64,000 nucleotides of DNA from Myxococcales bacterium (GTDB lineage: Bacteria > Myxococcota > UBA727 > VGSZ01): contig JAHFED010000007.1 of assembly GCA_023248635.1 (NCBI GenBank), positions 62,001 to 126,000 of the forward strand, in the 5' to 3' direction. The position numbers and the translations under genes are program-made. Under the pieces are notes generated by a model that made no database searches, was not told the origin of the DNA, and worked only from the letters and a program-made list of their open reading frames with translations. Positions 4,234 through 15,724 of this stretch are shown here, in pieces (the stretch's first letter is position 1; each line of letters opens with the position of its first letter).

Positions 4234-5337
4234 TCAACGAAAGAGGAACTTCATTGGATCTTCGCGCAGGGCTTTGAGCACGGCCTTGAGGTCTTTGGCG
4301 ACGTCTTCGTCGTGGAAGAGCTTGCCAGCTGCTCCCTCTTGGTTTTCGATCTTGCCCAAGAGGCGCTCGGCGCGGCGGGCGGCGGCGTCCAACGACGTCA
4401 GCGTCGACGAGAGCTGTGCGGTCACCTTGGTCTGCAGCAGGGGATCGGTGGCCGGACCTTTCTCGAGGGCGCGCAGCAGGATCTCGGTGTGCTGCAAGGT
4501 CGAGCGAGCCTCGGCGACGAAGGTCTGCAGTTCGGCCTGCAGCAGTCCGTCTTCGAGACGAGCGGTGCGATCGAGCACAGGCGGCAGGCCCTCGAGGGTG
4601 CTCTTGAGGGCGCGGCCGTCGCCGACGCCGACGGCGGCACCCTTCACCAGCTGGCGCAGATCGTCGATGAGGGCGGTGGCGTCTTTGAGACCGTCCTTGA
4701 GCTGCTGCTGTTGGTCTTCGTTTTTCAAGACGGCATCGAGGGCCTCGATCAGGCTCGCCGTCGTCGCCATCAGGCGCTTGGCTTCGGGCGAGCTTGGCAG
4801 GAGCTCGTCGGCGCGCTCGAGCAAAGCCGACGCGCGGGGCAAGAGGAGATCGGCGCGGGCCAGGGTGACGCCGTCGACGCGGGCCCCGTCGGCCAGGGGT
4901 GAGCCTGGCGCGGGATCGATGTCCAAATAGTGCTCACCGAGCACGCCGAGGGTGGTCACGTAAAAGCGCGTGCCGCTGGTCAAAAGATGGGCGACGTCTT
5001 GCTCGACGCGGGCCCGCACCCGCACCATGGCCGCGGGGCCCGCCACCCGATCGCGGCCCGCGAGCAGCACCACATCGTCGACGACGCCGACGACGACGCC
5101 GGCCACCCGCACCGAAGCCCCGGGCTTGATGGGACCGCAGAAGGCGAAGTCGACGTCGACGCGGGGTCCTTGCAACACGCGGATGGGTCCGGTGAAGAGC
5201 AGCACCGCCACAAAGACCAGCACCGAGCAGACGACGACGACGCCGACGCGCACGGCGCGCTTTCGATCCAGGGATTCCTGGGCCAGGGGCTGCAAGAGCA
5301 GGGGCGTGGGGATCGGGGGCGGACTGGGTTCGTTCAC
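4234..5337 (-). CDS. MCE (MlaD-like) substrate-binding protein
   Basis: The 367-residue protein has a short cytoplasmic N terminus, a single membrane segment at about residues 28-50 and one MCE domain (about 55-155). The domain contains VDFAFCGPIKPGASVRVAGV and FYVTTLGVLGEHYLDIDP, the family's hallmark strands. A long helical C-terminal region (about 170-340) with heptad-like Leu spacing follows, as in Mce/PqiB/YebT-type proteins that form needle or tunnel structures. MCE proteins hold lipids between the inner and outer membranes. It is the last gene of the ubiB-ATPase-permease-permease-ATPase-mlaD run and starts with a GTG overlapping the preceding ATPase stop. The single MCE domain implies a hexamer shared by both permease/ATPase pairs. 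Confidence 0.88.
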   Translation of the reverse strand: MNEPSPPPIPTPLLLQPLAQESLDRKRAVRVGVVVVCSVLVFVAVLLFTGPIRVLQGPRVDVDFAFCGPIKPGASVRVAGVVVGVVDDVVLLAGRDRVAGPAAMVRVRARVEQDVAHLLTSGTRFYVTTLGVLGEHYLDIDPAPGSPLADGARVDGVTLARADLLLPRASALLERADELLPSSPEAKRLMATTASLIEALDAVLKNEDQQQQLKDGLKDATALIDDLRQLVKGAAVGVGDGRALKSTLEGLPPVLDRTARLEDGLLQAELQTFVAEARSTLQHTEILLRALEKGPATDPLLQTKVTAQLSSTLTSLDAAARRAERLLGKIENQEGAAGKLFHDEDVAKDLKAVLKALREDPMKFLFR

Positions 5338-5981
5338 GCTCGAGCCTCGTTTGCTGCTGCGGCGGACAGACGGCCGGCTTGAACGACGACGACGTTGCTC
5401 TTGGGCATCTGCAGCATGCGGCCCACGGTGCGGGGGTGGTGGGTAATCACGATCAACGCGCGCGCGGAATCGACCACCGAGCAGAGGGCTTCGTCGACGT
5501 CGGCGGCGGCTTGGGGATCGAGGCCGGTGGTGGGCTCGTCGACGATGAGCACCCCGGGGCGCAGCAGCAGCGCGCGGGCGAGGGCCACGCGACGGGCCTG
5601 TGAGGGCGACAATTGGTGCGGCAGGAGGTGGGCGACGTCGTCGACACCGAGCTGCTCCAACCAGGCTCGGGGATCGTCCATCGACGTGCCGCTGTTCTTG
5701 GTCTGGAAGCGCGCGGGCAAGAGCACATTGTGCAGCACGTCGAGGTCGTCGAGCAGGGCGGGATCCTGGTGCACGAACACCAGGGGTGGTGCCGAGATCC
5801 GCACTTCGCCCGCGCTGCGCAGCAGGAGGCCGGCGGCGGCCTTCATCAACACGCTCTTGCCGGCACCCGAGCGGCCGACGACCAGGGTGACGCTGCCGCG
5901 TGCGAAGGACAACGAAACGTCATCGACGACGACGCGGCCGCCCAAGTGCACGGTCAAATGCTCGATGGACAGGGCGCTCAT
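5334..5981 (-). CDS. MCE transporter ATPase 1 (MlaF-like, degenerate signature motif)
   Basis: The 215-residue ABC ATPase has Walker A GRSGAGKS at 36-43, Q-loop Gln72 (VFVHQDP), Walker B with catalytic Glu (VDEPTTGLDP at 147-156) and switch His181. All residues needed for ATP hydrolysis on its own face are therefore present. The signature motif, however, reads LSPSQ at 124-128 instead of LSGGQ. The gene overlaps the upstream permease (ATGA) and the downstream MlaD gene (GTGA) by 4 bp. MlaF-type ATPases drive lipid movement by MCE transporters on the cytoplasmic face of the inner membrane. Together with the second ATPase at 7473-8156 it would make one intact and one degenerate ATP site. Confidence 0.88.
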   Translation of the reverse strand: MSALSIEHLTVHLGGRVVVDDVSLSFARGSVTLVVGRSGAGKSVLMKAAAGLLLRSAGEVRISAPPLVFVHQDPALLDDLDVLHNVLLPARFQTKNSGTSMDDPRAWLEQLGVDDVAHLLPHQLSPSQARRVALARALLLRPGVLIVDEPTTGLDPQAAADVDEALCSVVDSARALIVITHHPRTVGRMLQMPKSNVVVVQAGRLSAAAANEARA

Positions 5982-6697
5982 GCCAGGAACCAGGCGACGT
6001 CGATGACGAGGTTGACCAAAAGGCAGAGCAAGGTGGCCCGCACCACGGCGTCGGCGGTGGCGCGGCCGACGTCGCCAGGATCGCCCGTGGCAGTGTTGAG
6101 GTTCAAGACGCTGGCGCGTCCTGAAAAGGCGGCGGAGACCGAGCCCGCAAAGATGCACAGGCCAAAGACCAGACCCTTGGCAGTCAAGAGGCCGAGCAAC
6201 GACGGCGTCACCACCTCGGGGTGGAAGAAGGTGAAGGGGTTGATGTTGGATCGCAGCAGCATCACCGCGATGCCTCCCAGCTCCCAGACGACGATGGCGA
6301 TGGTGCAAAGGACCAGAGTTCCCAGCGGGAGGGCGAGCGCCATGGGCACCACCCGCCGCTGCCAGGGTCTGGTTTGGTAGAGGATTTGGGCATCCCAGGT
6401 GCCGTCGGCGATCAACGATGAGAGCTCGGCCGAAAAGCCAGCGCCCACGCGCTGGGCCAAGACGATGGCGGTCACCAGCGGACAGAACTCCTGCACGCCC
6501 AGCACGGGATATTCGAGGCCGATGAAGCTCTGATCTCCCAGCAGGCGCATGGCTTGGCGTCCGGCTTGATCGGCCATGGCCGCTCCCACCATCGACGACG
6601 CCGCACACACCAGCAGCAAAGAACCCCAGACGACGTCGTCCAGCCGACGTAATACATCACGACCTTCTGGTGCGATGAAGGAATATGAAGAGATCAT
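5978..6697 (-). CDS. MCE transporter permease 1 (MlaE-like, divergent coupling loop)
   Basis: The 239-residue integral membrane protein has the MlaE core RVGAGFSAELSS and a C-terminal GLLTAKGLVFGLCIFAG followed by VGRATADAVVRA, both typical of the family. The coupling segment that usually reads EQ.DAL.V.G.DP is instead DGTWDAQILYQTRP, so its contact with the ATPase is unusual. About five hydrophobic segments are present. The start ATG overlaps the upstream permease stop (ATGA), and the 3' end overlaps ATPase 1. Bases around the start (about 6640-6700) are less GC-rich than the flanks. It probably pairs with permease 2 as a heterodimer, as YrbEA/YrbEB do in actinobacterial MCE systems. Confidence 0.85.
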   Translation of the reverse strand: MISSYSFIAPEGRDVLRRLDDVVWGSLLLVCAASSMVGAAMADQAGRQAMRLLGDQSFIGLEYPVLGVQEFCPLVTAIVLAQRVGAGFSAELSSLIADGTWDAQILYQTRPWQRRVVPMALALPLGTLVLCTIAIVVWELGGIAVMLLRSNINPFTFFHPEVVTPSLLGLLTAKGLVFGLCIFAGSVSAAFSGRASVLNLNTATGDPGDVGRATADAVVRATLLCLLVNLVIDVAWFLA

Positions 6698-7476
6698 CCC
6701 GTCCCCCCGAGCAGAGAGAGGGCGAGATTGACCGTCACGACGCCGACCAGGGAGAGCACGCTGCCGCGGTAGACGGCGTCGCCGACAGCGTTGGCGCTGC
6801 TCCTTGGGGTCGTGGCAGCGGTGATAGTTGGCTGCGCTTGCCAAAGGCTGAGCCCGGCGTGGGTGGTGCACAGCCCGATGATCAAGCCAAAGAGGGCCAG
6901 GCGCAGCAGGCCTTCGACGACGACGACGCTGCCCAGGTAGCTGTGCACGGACCACAGGCTGACTGCCAGGTTCTGATCGCCGAGCACGCGGGCAAAGCCA
7001 AAGCCCACCGCAAGGATCGAGATCGCGGCCAAGGGATAGAGCAGCACGGTGACGACGACGACGGCGCCGACGCGGGGGGCGGTGACCGCGGCGTGGGGGT
7101 CGAGGCCGAGTGCGCAGAGGGCATCAAGTCGCTCGCGCACCGCCAGCGTCGCCACCTGGGCGCTGTTCTTGGTGCCGACGCGAGCAGCGATGGCGAAGGC
7201 CAAGAGCAAGGGACCGACGTCGCGAAAGGCCGACAAGGCCGCGGCCCAGCCAAAGACCTCGGTGGCGTTGTAGCGGGTGAGGTAGCCGAGCCCTTGCAGG
7301 CCGACGATGCCGCCGATGACGACGGAGCCAAAGGCCACGGTGGGGGCGGCGTCGCGCAGCCCGACATCGACCAGGCGCAGCGTTTCGTCGGCATCGCAGC
7401 GGCCGCGCAACAGCACGCGCAGCACCACCAGCAGGCGCAGCAGCAGAGCGCCCGTGCCCGTGAAGATGGCGCTCAC
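6694..7476 (-). CDS. MCE transporter permease 2 (MlaE-like, canonical coupling loop)
   Basis: The 260-residue protein is a second, clearly different MlaE-family permease. It keeps the coupling loop ERLDALCALGLDP (the family EQ-loop) after ARVGTKNSAQVATLAV. Hydrophobic segments follow, including GAVVVVTVLLYPLAAISILA and FGLIIGLCTTHAGL. The start is a GTG inside a GTGA overlap with ATPase 2, and the 3' end overlaps permease 1. Identity to permease 1 is low by eye, so this is an old duplication or a built-in heterodimer rather than a recent copy. With ATPase 2 it forms the upstream half of the transporter block. Confidence 0.86.
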   Translation of the reverse strand: MSAIFTGTGALLLRLLVVLRVLLRGRCDADETLRLVDVGLRDAAPTVAFGSVVIGGIVGLQGLGYLTRYNATEVFGWAAALSAFRDVGPLLLAFAIAARVGTKNSAQVATLAVRERLDALCALGLDPHAAVTAPRVGAVVVVTVLLYPLAAISILAVGFGFARVLGDQNLAVSLWSVHSYLGSVVVVEGLLRLALFGLIIGLCTTHAGLSLWQAQPTITAATTPRSSANAVGDAVYRGSVLSLVGVVTVNLALSLLGGTG

Positions 7477-8156
7477 GGCGCGACCCCGAGGAAGGGTGCA
7501 GAGGGCCGGGGCGCAAAGGGGATCGGCAGGGCGTCGACGTCGACCAGCTCGGCTCCACCGGTGGGCTGCAACCAGAGGGCGCGCCGGCAACGGGGGAGCA
7601 CGGTATCGATGTCTTGGGTGGCCAAGAGCGCCACGCAGTCCTCGAGACCAGCAGTGACGATGTCGACGACGGCAGCGGCGGTGAGAGGATCGAGGCCCGC
7701 GGTGGGATCATCGAGCAAGAGGGTGCGCGGCCGCAGCACCAGGGCCCGGGCGAGGCCCACACGCTTGCGTTGTCCCCCCGAGAGCCCGCGCGGCGATCGC
7801 TCTTGGGCGGGTTCGTCGATGCCCAAACGCGAGAGCAGGTTGCGGGCACAGCCCAGGGGATCGGCGATGCCAGCAGCGACGGCGACGTCGACGACGTTGT
7901 CGAGAGCGCTACTGCCGTCGTCGAGGGCGCCGCTCTCAAACACCATGCCGATGGGACGATCGACAAGCGCGCGGCCGCCGATGATGGCCCGCGGCAAAAG
8001 GCCAGCAAGGGCCAGCAGCAGCAGGGTCTTGCCCGAACCCGAAGCCCCAACGACAGCGGTGATGCCGGTGTCGATGCGCAGGGTGATGGGTCCAATCGAG
8101 CGGGTCGCCAGAGCGGCACGGGGGCTGCGCAGCAGAAGGCCGTCGACGTCGATCAC
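7473..8156 (-). CDS. MCE transporter ATPase 2 (MlaF-like, degenerate catalytic residues)
   Basis: The 227-residue ABC ATPase keeps Walker A (GASGSGKT, 37-44) and a perfect signature motif LSGGQ (125-129). Three catalytic positions are altered. The Q-loop reads MVFESGAL with Glu74 instead of Gln, Walker B reads LLLDDPTAGLDP with Asp150 instead of the catalytic Glu, and the switch histidine is Gln181 (LLATQD). The FESGAL stretch corresponds to the MlaF FQSGAL motif, so the family call is firm. The gene starts with GTG, overlaps the UbiB-like stop by 4 bp and overlaps permease 2 by 4 bp. Its loss of hydrolysis residues complements the LSGGQ loss in ATPase 1. Confidence 0.88.
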   Translation of the reverse strand: MIDVDGLLLRSPRAALATRSIGPITLRIDTGITAVVGASGSGKTLLLLALAGLLPRAIIGGRALVDRPIGMVFESGALDDGSSALDNVVDVAVAAGIADPLGCARNLLSRLGIDEPAQERSPRGLSGGQRKRVGLARALVLRPRTLLLDDPTAGLDPLTAAAVVDIVTAGLEDCVALLATQDIDTVLPRCRRALWLQPTGGAELVDVDALPIPFAPRPSAPFLGVAP

Positions 8157-9880
8157 GGCTTGTCTCTCTGATCGCGCAGGCGACGCAGGCGGTTGCCCAG
8201 CAAGCGCGCGATGGTGATCTTCGGCAGACGGCCGCCGGTCACGTACCAGCCAAAGGCGACGCCGAAGACGCCGCCGGCGGTGGCGAAAGCGGCCAGCGCC
8301 AGCAGTCCGGAGCGAGCCTGGAGCAGTCCGCTGGCGTCGAGGGTGAGAAAGCCCGCCAGCACCAGCGACCCGCAGAGGATGCCGCCGAACACCGTCATGC
8401 CGACGCCGCGCAAGGTGCTGTTGAGCTGCTCGAGGGCTTCGCTTTTGACGGCGACCTGCACCTGTCCGCGTTCGAAGTCGAGCAGCACCTGGCCCAGCTG
8501 CACAGGCAGCTCTTGCACGACCAAGGCGAGCTGCAGGGCCGTGCGCAAACCGCCGCCCTCGAGGGAGCGGGGATCGAGGCGGTTGCGCAGCAATTCTTCG
8601 GCTCTCTTGGCCACCGCCTTTGAGGGATCGAAGCGCGGGTGCAGCGCCCGGACGATGCCGTCGATGGAGACCGAGGCCTTCGACAAAATGGCCATCTCGC
8701 GCGGCAGGCGCACGCCGAAGCGCGTGGACAGGTCGATGAGATCGGTCAGCACCGCCGCCGTCGACACGTCGCCGACCGCCAACCCGAAGTAGCGATCGAG
8801 CAGCTTGCCGATGGCCGCGCGAAAGGGAGCGATGCCGATGCGTCCGTCGACGTCGCCGAGGCGAATGACCAAGCGGGCCAGGGTGTCGACATCGCGCAGC
8901 GAGAGCGCGAGCAAGAGCATCAACATCTTGTCTTGCATCTCGCGCTGCACCCGCCCGACCAAGCCGAAATCGATGAAAGCAATGTTGTCGTCGACGTCGA
9001 TGAGCAGGTTGCCGGGATGGGGATCGCCGTGAAACAGGCCGTCGACGAAGACGTGCTCGAAGGCCACCTCGACCAGCCGCTCGATCACCTTGGCGGCGCG
9101 CTGAGGCTCGGGCGCGAGGTCGCTGATCCGCACGCCGTGGATGCGCTCCATGACGAGGACCGTGCGCCCCGAGAGCGCCTGGTGGAAACGCGGAACCCTG
9201 ATGCCGGTGCGGCCAGCGTTTTTTTCGGCGAAGGCCTCGAGGTTCTTGGCTTCGCGGCGAAAGTCGAGCTCTTGGGCGAGGGCGTCCTTGAATTCCGACA
9301 CGAGGTCGACGGCGCGGTAGGTGCTGGCCTCCTCGATGACCCGCTCGAGCAATTGGGCGATGACGACGAGGATCTCGCTGTCTTTCTTGACCTGCTCGCC
9401 GATGTCGGGCCGCTGCACTTTGACGACGACGTCGCTGCCATCTTTGAGGATGCCCGCGTGTACTTGGGCCATCGACGCCGACGCCAGCGGAGCCTCGTCG
9501 AAGGAGGAAAAGTGATCAGAGACCGGCACGCCCCAGGCTTCGGCCAGGGTTCGGCGCACCTCGGCGACGGAGAAGGGTGGCACTTGATCTTGCAGACGGG
9601 AGAGCGCAGCGATGAAGTCCGGCGGCAACAGGTCGGCGCGTGTCGACAAGATCTGGCCGAGCTTGACGAAGGTGGGACCGAGATCTTCGAGCATGGCCGC
9701 GAAGCGCTCGGCGACGGGTCGGGCGCGGCGGGCGACGTCGTCGTCTTTGGCGAAGGAACGCACGATGGGCATGGTCTGCATGGTCGGCGCGAAGCCGTGG
9801 CGCGACATGACCCCAGCGATCTCCGACAAGCGCCCCAGGGCGCTCGTCGACGGCGACGCTCGGCTTCGATCTTCGCTCAT
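8153..9880 (-). CDS. UbiB/ABC1/AarF-family atypical kinase
   Basis: The 575-residue protein carries the UbiB signatures: KLGQ at 73-76 in FVKLGQILSTRADLLP, the Ala-rich loop ASASMAQVH, a VVKVQRP lysine strand, the catalytic HGDPHPGNLL and the metal-binding IDFG. Two hydrophobic segments near the C terminus (about 505-530 and 535-560) would anchor it in the membrane. The family are ATPases/kinases needed for ubiquinone and other isoprenoid-lipid homeostasis. It is the first gene of the MCE operon and overlaps ATPase 2 by 4 bp, so it is expected at fixed ratio with the transporter. The ATG at 9880 was chosen because the upstream extension is low-complexity and antisense-like. Confidence 0.87.
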   Translation of the reverse strand: MSEDRSRASPSTSALGRLSEIAGVMSRHGFAPTMQTMPIVRSFAKDDDVARRARPVAERFAAMLEDLGPTFVKLGQILSTRADLLPPDFIAALSRLQDQVPPFSVAEVRRTLAEAWGVPVSDHFSSFDEAPLASASMAQVHAGILKDGSDVVVKVQRPDIGEQVKKDSEILVVIAQLLERVIEEASTYRAVDLVSEFKDALAQELDFRREAKNLEAFAEKNAGRTGIRVPRFHQALSGRTVLVMERIHGVRISDLAPEPQRAAKVIERLVEVAFEHVFVDGLFHGDPHPGNLLIDVDDNIAFIDFGLVGRVQREMQDKMLMLLLALSLRDVDTLARLVIRLGDVDGRIGIAPFRAAIGKLLDRYFGLAVGDVSTAAVLTDLIDLSTRFGVRLPREMAILSKASVSIDGIVRALHPRFDPSKAVAKRAEELLRNRLDPRSLEGGGLRTALQLALVVQELPVQLGQVLLDFERGQVQVAVKSEALEQLNSTLRGVGMTVFGGILCGSLVLAGFLTLDASGLLQARSGLLALAAFATAGGVFGVAFGWYVTGGRLPKITIARLLGNRLRRLRDQRDKP

Positions 9881-10064
9881 GGCGACGACGCTATGGCAAG
9901 GCCGGCGTCGGCCTGCGAGACCTTTTTGCGCCGGTCCGACCGGCCGCGCAAGCAGAGAGCAGATCACGGCAGCCGCGAGCACCACGAGGCGGTCGTTGAC
10001 GACGACGACGTGGCGGGGGGACGCTGTGATCCGATCCCATCGGCCATCGCAGCCCAGGAGAACC

Positions 10065-10757
10065 GTGAGCAGCTCCCGCATCTACATCGCCGTCGCGGGC
10101 AACATCGGTGCCGGGAAGTCCACGCTTGTCGATTTTCTCTGTAAGACGTACGGGGTGTCGCCGTTCTTTGAGCCCAACGATGAAAACCCGTATCTTGCGG
10201 ATTTTTACCAGGACATGAAGTCCTGGTCCTTCCATTCGCAGGTATATTTTCTTGCGCACAAGTTCTGCATCCACCAGGAGCTGGACAAGACCCCGGGCAT
10301 CGTGGTGCAAGATCGCACGATCTACGAGGACGCCGAGATCTTTGCGACGGCGCTCCATCAGTCCAGGGCGATGAGCGAGCGGGACTGGAAAACCTATCAG
10401 GAACTCTACCGCACCATCTGCAATTCTCTGCGTCCGCCCGATTTGATGATTTACCTACGTTGTTCGCTGAAAACGACGAAGCAACGCATCAAGATTCGGG
10501 GACGAGCGATGGAGCAATCCATTCCCACGGCGTACCTGAAACGGCTGCAGGATTTGTACGACCGCTGGCTGCAGGACTGGAAGGCCTGCGAGGTGCTGCA
10601 GCTCGACACCGACAACCTCGATTACGTCAGCGACTTCGTCGATCGCCTCGACGTCCTGGCGAAGGTCGAGCGCTACTTGCCGCGGGACTCGATCGAGGCG
10701 GCCCGCGCTTCTTCGACGGCGACGAAGGCGGTTGCTGCTTTGTCGGCACCGGCCTGA
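10065..10757 (+). CDS. Deoxynucleoside kinase (dNK/dGK family)
   Basis: The 230-residue protein starts at a GTG preceded by AGGAG with 4-nt spacing. The P-loop GNIGAGKS lies at residues 12-19, the substrate Glu in FFEPNDENPY follows, and QDRTIYED provides the DR[ST] motif of deoxyadenosine/deoxyguanosine kinases. A lid-like RIKIRGRAMEQ segment is near 145. The enzyme phosphorylates deoxynucleosides for dNTP salvage. Bases about 10140-10520 have noticeably more A/T at third positions than the flanks. The last 131 bp are antisense to the end of the pseudouridine synthase gene. The gene is divergent from the UbiB/MCE operon. Confidence 0.85.
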   Translation: MSSSRIYIAVAGNIGAGKSTLVDFLCKTYGVSPFFEPNDENPYLADFYQDMKSWSFHSQVYFLAHKFCIHQELDKTPGIVVQDRTIYEDAEIFATALHQSRAMSERDWKTYQELYRTICNSLRPPDLMIYLRCSLKTTKQRIKIRGRAMEQSIPTAYLKRLQDLYDRWLQDWKACEVLQLDTDNLDYVSDFVDRLDVLAKVERYLPRDSIEAARASSTATKAVAALSAPA

Positions 10758-13347: not shown

Positions 13348-13858
13348 GTTTCTACCTCGGTTGATTTTAACTCGACGATCGACGGTGGAGTCATGCCACC
13401 ATTATAGATTGAAGTAAGGCCACGGCGACCCGATCTACCAGTGAGCTGCGGGAACGCCGCCGCGCTCGATCTTTGTGCGCATCCGAGTCCCATCCCGATC
13501 CCCTCGGCGGCGGTTCCTCTGTCGCCCGGCGCGCGGCTTGATATCGCCCCCATCACCCTCCCGGGAAATCGGGTCGAGCAGCACCCCGCCGCGGCAACCT
13601 CGCCTTGTCGTTGAAGTTCTGATCTTCAAGACGCGCCAGCGTCTTGAACATCCAAGCTTCAAGACGCGCCAGCGTCTTGAACATCCAAGCTTCAAGACGC
13701 GCCAGCGTCTTGAACATCCAAGCTTCAAGACGCGCCAGCGTCTTGAACATCCAAACTTCAAGGCGCTGGCGCGTCTTCAGGCTCGGCGTATCCTCATGTG
13801 CATGAGGCGCTTCCGTCACGATCAGCGGCATCGAGGCTCCCGGGCCGGGCACTAGGCC
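13348..13858. other. Intergenic region holding a palindromic repeat array
   Basis: This 511-bp gap separates the divergent DUF1801 genes. Its 13625-13780 part is filled by the hairpin repeat array described separately. The rest (13348-13624) shows no convincing gene. Open frames here are repeat translations or Pro/Arg-rich shadows. Promoters for both DUF1801 genes should lie in it. Confidence 0.5.
13625..13780. repeat. Array of palindromic repeat A, 33-bp period (4 direct copies plus 1 inverted)
   Basis: The core is a perfect hairpin: arm TTCAAGACGC, loop GCCA, arm GCGTCTTGAA. Four identical cores start at 13625, 13658, 13691 and 13724, separated by a constant 9-bp CATCCAAGC. A fifth degenerate copy in opposite orientation (GGCGCTGGCGCGTCTT) ends the array near 13780. 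The fixed spacer excludes a CRISPR. Similar cores occur at 15539-15724, 16428-16485, 32029-32090 and, degenerate, at 54950-54974. Confidence 0.93.
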
Positions 13859-14260
13859 ATGGCAGCGAAGGCCAAGGCACCGAACCCTGCGGCGGTCGAC
13901 GCGTGGCTGGCGACGCTGCCGAACAACCAGCGAGCTGCGCTCCAACGGCTGCGAGAGCAGATCCGGGCAGCGGCTCCCGAGGCCGTGGAGACCATCGCCT
14001 ACGGCGTCCCGATGTTTTATGTCGGGTCGACCCCGCTGCTGGGCTTCAACGCTTTCACAAATCACGTTTCCCTCGGGGTCGGCAGCGGGACGCTCGACCC
14101 GATGCGGGCCGAGCTCGAGGGCTACGACACCGCGAAGGGCACGGTGCGCTTCTCCCCGGACCTCCCCCTGCCCGCAGGTCTCGTGAGGAAGATCGTGAAG
14201 GCGCGCATCGCTCTGCATGCTGCTGGCAAGCCGGCGAGCAGACCCAAGTCGGCCCAGTGA
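13859..14260 (+). CDS. DUF1801 (YdhG-like) protein
   Basis: The 133-residue protein begins with a basic/Ala leader and then the family pattern AVDAWLATLPNNQRAALQRLREQI, APEAVETIAYGVPMFYVGSTPLLGF, NHVSLGVGSG and a C-terminal helix. This is the YdhG-type DUF1801 arrangement (iron chaperone-like fold; function not established in general). Unlike the DUF1801 gene at 12931-13347 it has the high GC third positions of the genome. It is transcribed away from the repeat array and converges on the FAD oxidoreductase gene, whose stop is 32 bp downstream. Confidence 0.78.
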   Translation: MAAKAKAPNPAAVDAWLATLPNNQRAALQRLREQIRAAAPEAVETIAYGVPMFYVGSTPLLGFNAFTNHVSLGVGSGTLDPMRAELEGYDTAKGTVRFSPDLPLPAGLVRKIVKARIALHAAGKPASRPKSAQ

Positions 14261-15538: not shown

Positions 15539-15724
15539 TTCAAGACGCGCCAGCGTCTTGAACCCTCAAAACTTCAAGACGCGCCAGCGTCTTGAACCCT
15601 CAAAACTTCAAGACGCGTCAGCGTCTTGAACCCTCAAAACTTCAGGACGCGCCAGCGTCTTGAACCCTCAAAACTTCAGGACGCGCCAGTGTCGAACCCT
15701 CAGCACTTCAAAACGCGCCAGCAG
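15539..15724. repeat. Array of palindromic repeat A, 34-bp period (about six units)
   Basis: Cores begin at 15539, 15573, 15607, 15641, 15675 and 15707 and are joined by CCCTCAAAAC spacers, so the period is 34 bp. The first three keep the hairpin arms; later ones decay (CAGG for CAAG, loss of part of the second arm at 15675, a half copy at 15707). The array fills the gap between the FAD oxidoreductase start and the next plus-strand gene. Progressive decay toward one end suggests growth by tandem duplication. Confidence 0.92.

Follow-up and report, generated by a model that had tools for sequence, protein, structure and literature searches.

In the lipid transporter MlaFEDB, which has the composition MlaF2E2D6B2, one ATPase and one permease are each present in two identical copies (PMC7790496). 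The mycobacterial Mce1 system joins a permease heterodimer, YrbE1A/YrbE1B, to a homodimer of the ATPase MceG (PMC9882608). In the degenerate-site transporters, one composite ATP site carries an altered signature motif together with a glutamate to aspartate change, and the other site is canonical (PMC7756269). Described here is a six-gene operon from a Myxococcales bacterium in which both the permeases and the ATPases form unlike pairs. It lies on the minus strand, from position 10081 to position 4234, of a 64,000-nucleotide stretch of DNA (contig JAHFED010000007.1, positions 62,001 to 126,000), hereafter referred to as the window. From the sequences of its genes we infer, with considerable confidence, an inner-membrane MCE lipid transporter that would be driven by an obligate heterodimer of its two ATPases, A and B, in which one ATP site hydrolyzes and the other is degenerate.

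Two ATPases with complementary losses

Read along the minus strand, the genes of the operon are as follows (AF2, AlphaFold2; pLDDT, predicted local distance difference test; TMD, transmembrane domain).

8153 to 10081, minus strand: UbiB/AarF (ABC1) atypical kinase-like protein, 642 residues, start uncertain (Pfam PF03109 ABC1, E 2e-71)
7473 to 8156, minus strand: ATPase A, 227 residues (Pfam ABC_tran; AF2 model pLDDT 83; member of the A clade)
6694 to 7476, minus strand: permease 1, MlaE family, TMD1 (Pfam PF02405 MlaE, E 5e-31; orthologue alignment)
5978 to 6697, minus strand: permease 2, MlaE family, TMD2 (Pfam PF02405 MlaE, E 6e-27; orthologue alignment)
5334 to 5981, minus strand: ATPase B, 215 residues (Pfam ABC_tran; AF2 model pLDDT 92; Foldseek match MlaF 6xbd)
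4234 to 5337, minus strand: MCE protein, 367 residues (Pfam PF02470 MlaD, E 7e-12)

The first-pass annotation, in which ATPases B and A were numbered 1 and 2, respectively, placed an MCE lipid transporter at 5334-8156. The identity stands: two MlaE permeases are encoded between the ATPases, and an MCE protein after B. The span covers the ATPases and permeases, and omits the MCE gene (5337-4234) and the UbiB-like gene (10081-8153) of the same chain. Both permeases exceed the gathering score of PF02405, and the MCE protein reaches 45.9 bits with PF02470 against a cut-off of 25.1. The two permeases are distinct paralogues, such that the permease pair, like the ATPase pair, is composed of unlike partners. 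With MlaE permeases, an MCE protein, and MlaF/MceG-related ATPases all present, the system is a member of the MCE/MlaE superfamily.

The motifs of the two ATPases were checked letter by letter, and the residues are exactly those given in the first-pass annotation. ATPase B has an intact Walker A motif (GRSGAGKS), Q-loop (Gln 72), Walker B motif (Asp 148-Glu 149), and switch residue (His 181), and its signature, at positions 124-128, reads LSPSQ in place of LSGGQ. In ATPase A the Walker A motif (GASGSGKT) and the signature LSGGQ (125-129) are intact, and the Q-loop contains Glu 74, the Walker B motif Asp 149-Asp 150, and the switch position Gln 181. The LSPSQ and DD/Q substitutions are not shared by ordinary MlaF or MceG. 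MlaF from Acinetobacter baumannii (7d06) and MceG from Mycobacterium smegmatis (8fed), when aligned, both display a canonical signature, catalytic glutamate, and switch histidine, as do MCE systems with one ATPase in the same genomes and in related ones. Single-chain models show both window proteins folding confidently as ATP-binding cassette (ABC) ATPases. In Foldseek searches of the PDB, MlaF (6xbd) was the second match to the model of B, and MceG and MlaF were matched lower in the list for A. Both proteins group with ATPases encoded beside MlaE permeases in trees calculated without a non-MCE outgroup.

In an ABC dimer, each ATP is enclosed by Walker motifs from one subunit and a signature motif from its partner. 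With the signature lost from one protein and the catalytic residues from the other, an A/B pair would have one complete site and one devoid of all the catalytic residues, and an A/A or B/B pair would have no complete site. The earlier proposal of one canonical and one degenerate composite site thus holds at the level of sequence, with both losses found in 58 of the 59 operons described below.

The comparison with known systems can be drawn accordingly. With MlaFEDB the window's system shares the MlaE permease family, an MCE protein, and an MlaF-like ATPase, but its permeases differ from each other, as do its ATPases, and the operon lacks an MlaB gene. The single canonical MlaF in two identical copies that marks Mla proper is not what is encoded here. 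A search confined to the six-gene chain, with no genome-wide counterpart, revealed no MlaB (STAS), MlaC, or MlaA gene. A heterodimeric permease pair and MCE proteins are shared with Mce1, which, unlike the operon with its two ATPases and one MCE gene, employs one canonical MceG homodimer and six MCE proteins. That the described Mla and MceG systems use one ATPase as a homodimer, as the annotation had stated, agrees with both structural descriptions (PMC7790496, PMC9882608). With TAP1/2, TM287/288, TmrAB, and MRP1 the system has in common, as far as its sequences tell, trans-complementary losses that leave one canonical and one degenerate site. These exporters, however, are of a different fold class and have the ATPase fused to the permease, whereas the operon has separate genes, MlaE-type permeases, and an MCE protein. 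By analogy, it may work like TAP or TM287/288 without membership in their class.

Distribution of the ATPase pair

The genome of the window contains six MlaE genes at four places. One of these systems (contig C78, L071) also has two MlaE permeases and an MCE protein, but differs in having a single ATPase, which is canonical (LSGGQ/DE/H). Among the 16 genomes of the window's class, orthologous operons were found in G014, G015, G013, and, more distantly, G001. The G014 operon ends at a contig end such that ATPase A lies outside the contig, and the G001 operon has no MCE gene after ATPase B. The B signatures of the window and these four operons read LSPSQ, LSPSQ, LSPAL, LAVAL, and LTPGQ, with the Q-loop glutamine, catalytic glutamate, and switch histidine invariant. 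In the four operons with a readable ATPase A, that of the window included, the signature is LSGG throughout; the catalytic glutamate position holds D, D, D, and N, the switch position Q, Q, N, and H, and the Q-loop E, A, Q, and Q.

A profile of permease 2 was searched over 195 genomes of the phylum, and 40 regions were read. The order A, permease, permease, B, MCE is widespread in the phylum. Many matches of this search group with named Myxococcus, in keeping with Myxococcota as the phylum of the window. In two loci (L140 in G078 and L160 in G080) the permeases are separated by about 3.5 kb and 1.4 kb of extra DNA, respectively, with the ATPases and the MCE gene in place. The motif DDPxAGLDP of ATPase A was additionally used for a pattern scan of 84,980 species genomes, and the matches listed include operons from Myxococcus xanthus AM003 (L233), other Myxococcus, Corallococcus, Bdellovibrio bacteriovorus kdesi (L207), and many other Bdellovibrionota. 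The occurrence in M. xanthus and B. bacteriovorus should allow for direct testing. In the Bdellovibrionota the genes for A and B come first, followed by the two permeases and the MCE gene, and the B signature is mostly (I/L)SYGM. A search of viral contigs gave no match.

For counting, 59 deduplicated two-ATPase MCE operons were assembled from Myxococcota and Bdellovibrionota, with M. xanthus and B. bacteriovorus among them, and from a few unplaced lineages; these are related by descent and do not represent 59 independent events. ATPase B retains the Walker A lysine, Q-loop glutamine, catalytic glutamate, and switch histidine in all 59, and an SGG signature in none. ATPase A retains the SGG signature and the D-loop in 59/59 and the Walker A lysine in all 56 readable cases, but the catalytic glutamate in only 3/59 and the switch histidine in 12/59, with one or both lost in 58. 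The composite site formed by the Walker motifs of B and the signature of A is thus intact in every operon, and in the site formed by the Walker motifs of A and the signature of B, the signature is broken in 59/59 and catalytic residues are lost in 58/59. An arrangement in cis, with all losses in one subunit, was seen in none of the 59. Chance or misalignment as the source of the pattern is ruled out by the per-residue check and by the 59 operons.

The signature of B is replaced by GPG, SYG, GDG, SPS, SPA, AVA, TPG, GAG, SAG, SFS, SYV, or SHS, and the switch residue of A by N, P, S, Q, A, or T across lineages. Such varying replacements are expected if constraint has been relaxed at one composite site and has stayed strict at the other. 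The losses in ATPase A vary in extent: the glutamate to aspartate change is the commonest, the Q-loop is mostly kept, and the window, with all three residues lost, is an extreme case.

Seven further loci (L127, L130, L142, L143, L144, L150, and L158) contain two permeases and a single adjacent ATPase with a broken signature. If A and B function as a heterodimer, the genomes of these loci would be expected to hold an unlinked A. Indeed, a search with an A profile revealed a lone A-type ATPase without a permease (L167-L171 and L173) in six of the seven. The signature is intact and the switch histidine is lost (to Asn or Thr) in all six, and the glutamate is changed to aspartate in two; in the two-phylum tree all six fall among the A ATPases. 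The idea that operons with a single adjacent ATPase break the rule is thus rejected for six of the seven genomes. The search for ATPase pairs with the same complementary losses, proposed in the first-pass annotation, yielded such pairs in 58 of the 59 operons, which come from two phyla and some further lineages, plus unlinked A partners. The complementary ATPase design is old and widespread, and not peculiar to the genome of the window.

Other lone MCE-like ATPases were observed. Those from relatives of Myxococcus and Corallococcus (L223, L216, L231, L252, and L265) and from G137 (L328 and L331) have LSGGM, aspartate for the catalytic glutamate, and proline at the switch position (VITPDV); apart from the operon's own B, no partner with a broken signature was seen for them. 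In the Alphaproteobacteria (L206, L210, L250, L253, L260, and L264) the signature is intact, aspartate replaces the glutamate, and the switch histidine is lost. Those of the Spirochaetes (L199, L205, L212-L214, L219, L235, L251, L257, and L258) likewise have an intact signature and the aspartate, with the histidine mostly kept. The alphaproteobacterial and spirochaete proteins have no permease nearby and are possibly partners of canonical ATPases, or regulators.

The trees are of short, fast-evolving proteins, with long branches for the window's group, and should be read with this in mind. The A ATPases form one clade in Myxococcota (support 94/79). In the two-phylum tree, calculated by a short search, the B ATPases form one branch at 94, and in the first tree a single B clade including the window's ATPase was not rejected (approximately unbiased test, p 0.19). 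On the basis of these groupings, the split between A and B seems to predate the sampled families, and perhaps both phyla. Among Myxococcus relatives the ratio of nonsynonymous to synonymous substitution rates (dN/dS) is about 0.31 for A, 0.28 for B, and 0.29 and 0.25 for the permeases; the value for A indicates that it is maintained by selection. Both A and B are ancient paralogues, each conserved in its own right and subject to purifying selection.

Proposed mechanism and its alternatives

The core of the transporter would be a hetero-tetramer of permease 1, permease 2, ATPase A, and ATPase B, with the MCE protein on top and the ATPases paired in head-to-tail fashion. A fully canonical site, predicted to hydrolyze ATP, would form where the Walker motifs of B meet the LSGGQ of A. 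The site at which the Walker motifs of A meet the LSPSQ of B might still bind ATP, its Walker A motif being intact, with poor or no hydrolysis. Like its counterparts in TAP, TmrAB, or TM287/288, it could serve as a clamp that prevents the dimer from opening fully. In the most likely cycle, ATP would be long retained at the degenerate site, and one ATP per turnover would be hydrolyzed at the site of B to transfer lipid between MCE protein and membrane. With two unlike permeases, one and the same permease would always lie on the hydrolyzing side. We infer the 1:1 assembly, the stoichiometry, the clamp role, and the lipid cargo, the last by analogy from family membership.

Several observations weigh against this scheme. 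Many of the 59 operons were chosen through a pattern that requires the aspartate of A, so its frequency is inflated; the signature of B was never a selection criterion, and the Myxococcota loci from the 195-genome search were chosen on the permease only. These permease-selected two-ATPase loci show both losses in all but one, L135 (G180), where A is fully intact and only the B signature (VGPG) is changed; this operon may capture the asymmetry soon after it arose. The A of some lineages lacks just a single one of the residues. For one of the seven B-type loci (L150, in G191), no A partner is among the matches listed from the A-profile search. A metagenome-assembled genome of Croceicoccus has a single-permease, single-ATPase MCE locus (L246) with aspartate at the catalytic position and the histidine and signature intact, and thus the glutamate to aspartate substitution alone is not proof of a heterodimer. 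Neither need this change by itself abolish hydrolysis, and residual activity is possible (PMC7756269).

The residual activity, along with the retention of the histidine in several A ATPases, would suit an arrangement in which both composite sites hydrolyze ATP, one of them slowly, such that the asymmetry tunes the rate and there is no true degenerate site. This is very improbable, however, in that the B signature is broken in every operon and ATPase A of the window is changed at the Q-loop, the catalytic acid, and the switch residue alike. It is also scarcely likely that A and B act as separate homodimers on different permease pairs, either as two transporters or as one with exchangeable ATPases. 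ATPase A is unlinked from the permease operon in six genomes, and so can be made apart, and other MlaE permeases are present in the genome of the window, but neither homodimer would have a canonical site: A would be without the glutamate and histidine in both halves, and B without the signature in both. Moreover, A and B are complementary in nearly every operon, and the window genes overlap by four bases. That ATPase A is a decaying, functionless duplicate, as its loss of up to three catalytic residues, fast evolution, and long branches might suggest, is exceedingly improbable given the retention of the signature and D-loop in all 59 operons, of the Walker A lysine in all 56 readable, and of A itself across two phyla even when unlinked, and a pseudogene is ruled out by the dN/dS value and the motif retention.

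The heterodimer, if correct, bears on how MCE transporters work. Those of known structure have a symmetric ATPase pair, and a natural asymmetric version would give each subunit a fixed place. What sets the direction of MCE transport is debated. With unlike pairs of permeases and ATPases, it could be determined on which side of the lipid path the hydrolyzing site lies, and that site could be mutated independently of the other. The degenerate-site principle would also be extended from fused exporters to MlaE-type lipid transporters. The open-access papers to which the literature search was limited report no two-ATPase, heterodimeric, or degenerate-site MCE transporter, which is weak evidence of novelty.

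The UbiB-like kinase and other features

A UbiB homologue is present at 10 other Myxococcota operon loci (L068, L069, L126, L137, L139, L141, L145, L146, L151, and L161) and beside three of the unlinked A ATPases (L169, L170, and L171); the search gave no match at single-ATPase MCE loci. By synteny, the UbiB-like kinase goes with the A-type ATPase, also where A lies apart from the permease genes. This points to a possible connection between kinases of the UbiB family and the transport of lipids between membranes. Independently, the authors of a study on Cqd1, a mitochondrial UbiB protein, drew a comparison with the Mla pathway (PMC10214851). A broader possibility, which we put forward tentatively and consider rather doubtful, is that obligately asymmetric MCE transporters form a class that extends across phyla and is typical of Myxococcota and Bdellovibrionota, with a permanent clamp site and the UbiB-family kinase tied to the degenerate subunit as a dedicated regulator or lipid-handling partner.

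Each junction of the six-gene chain is a four-base overlap, either GTGA or ATGA. The stop of the UbiB-like gene overlaps the start of ATPase A (GTGA), the stop of ATPase A is overlapped by the GTG start of permease 1, the junction between the permeases is ATGA, and that between ATPase B and the MCE gene is GTGA. Such overlaps would favor translation of the subunits in step. The MCE protein has a single N-terminal hydrophobic stretch, a single MCE (MlaD) domain at residues 57-142, and a long C-terminal region. Elsewhere in the window, at about 13435-13860 and 15540-15700, the list of open reading frames shows short repeats, translated as FKTRQRLE in one of the frames.

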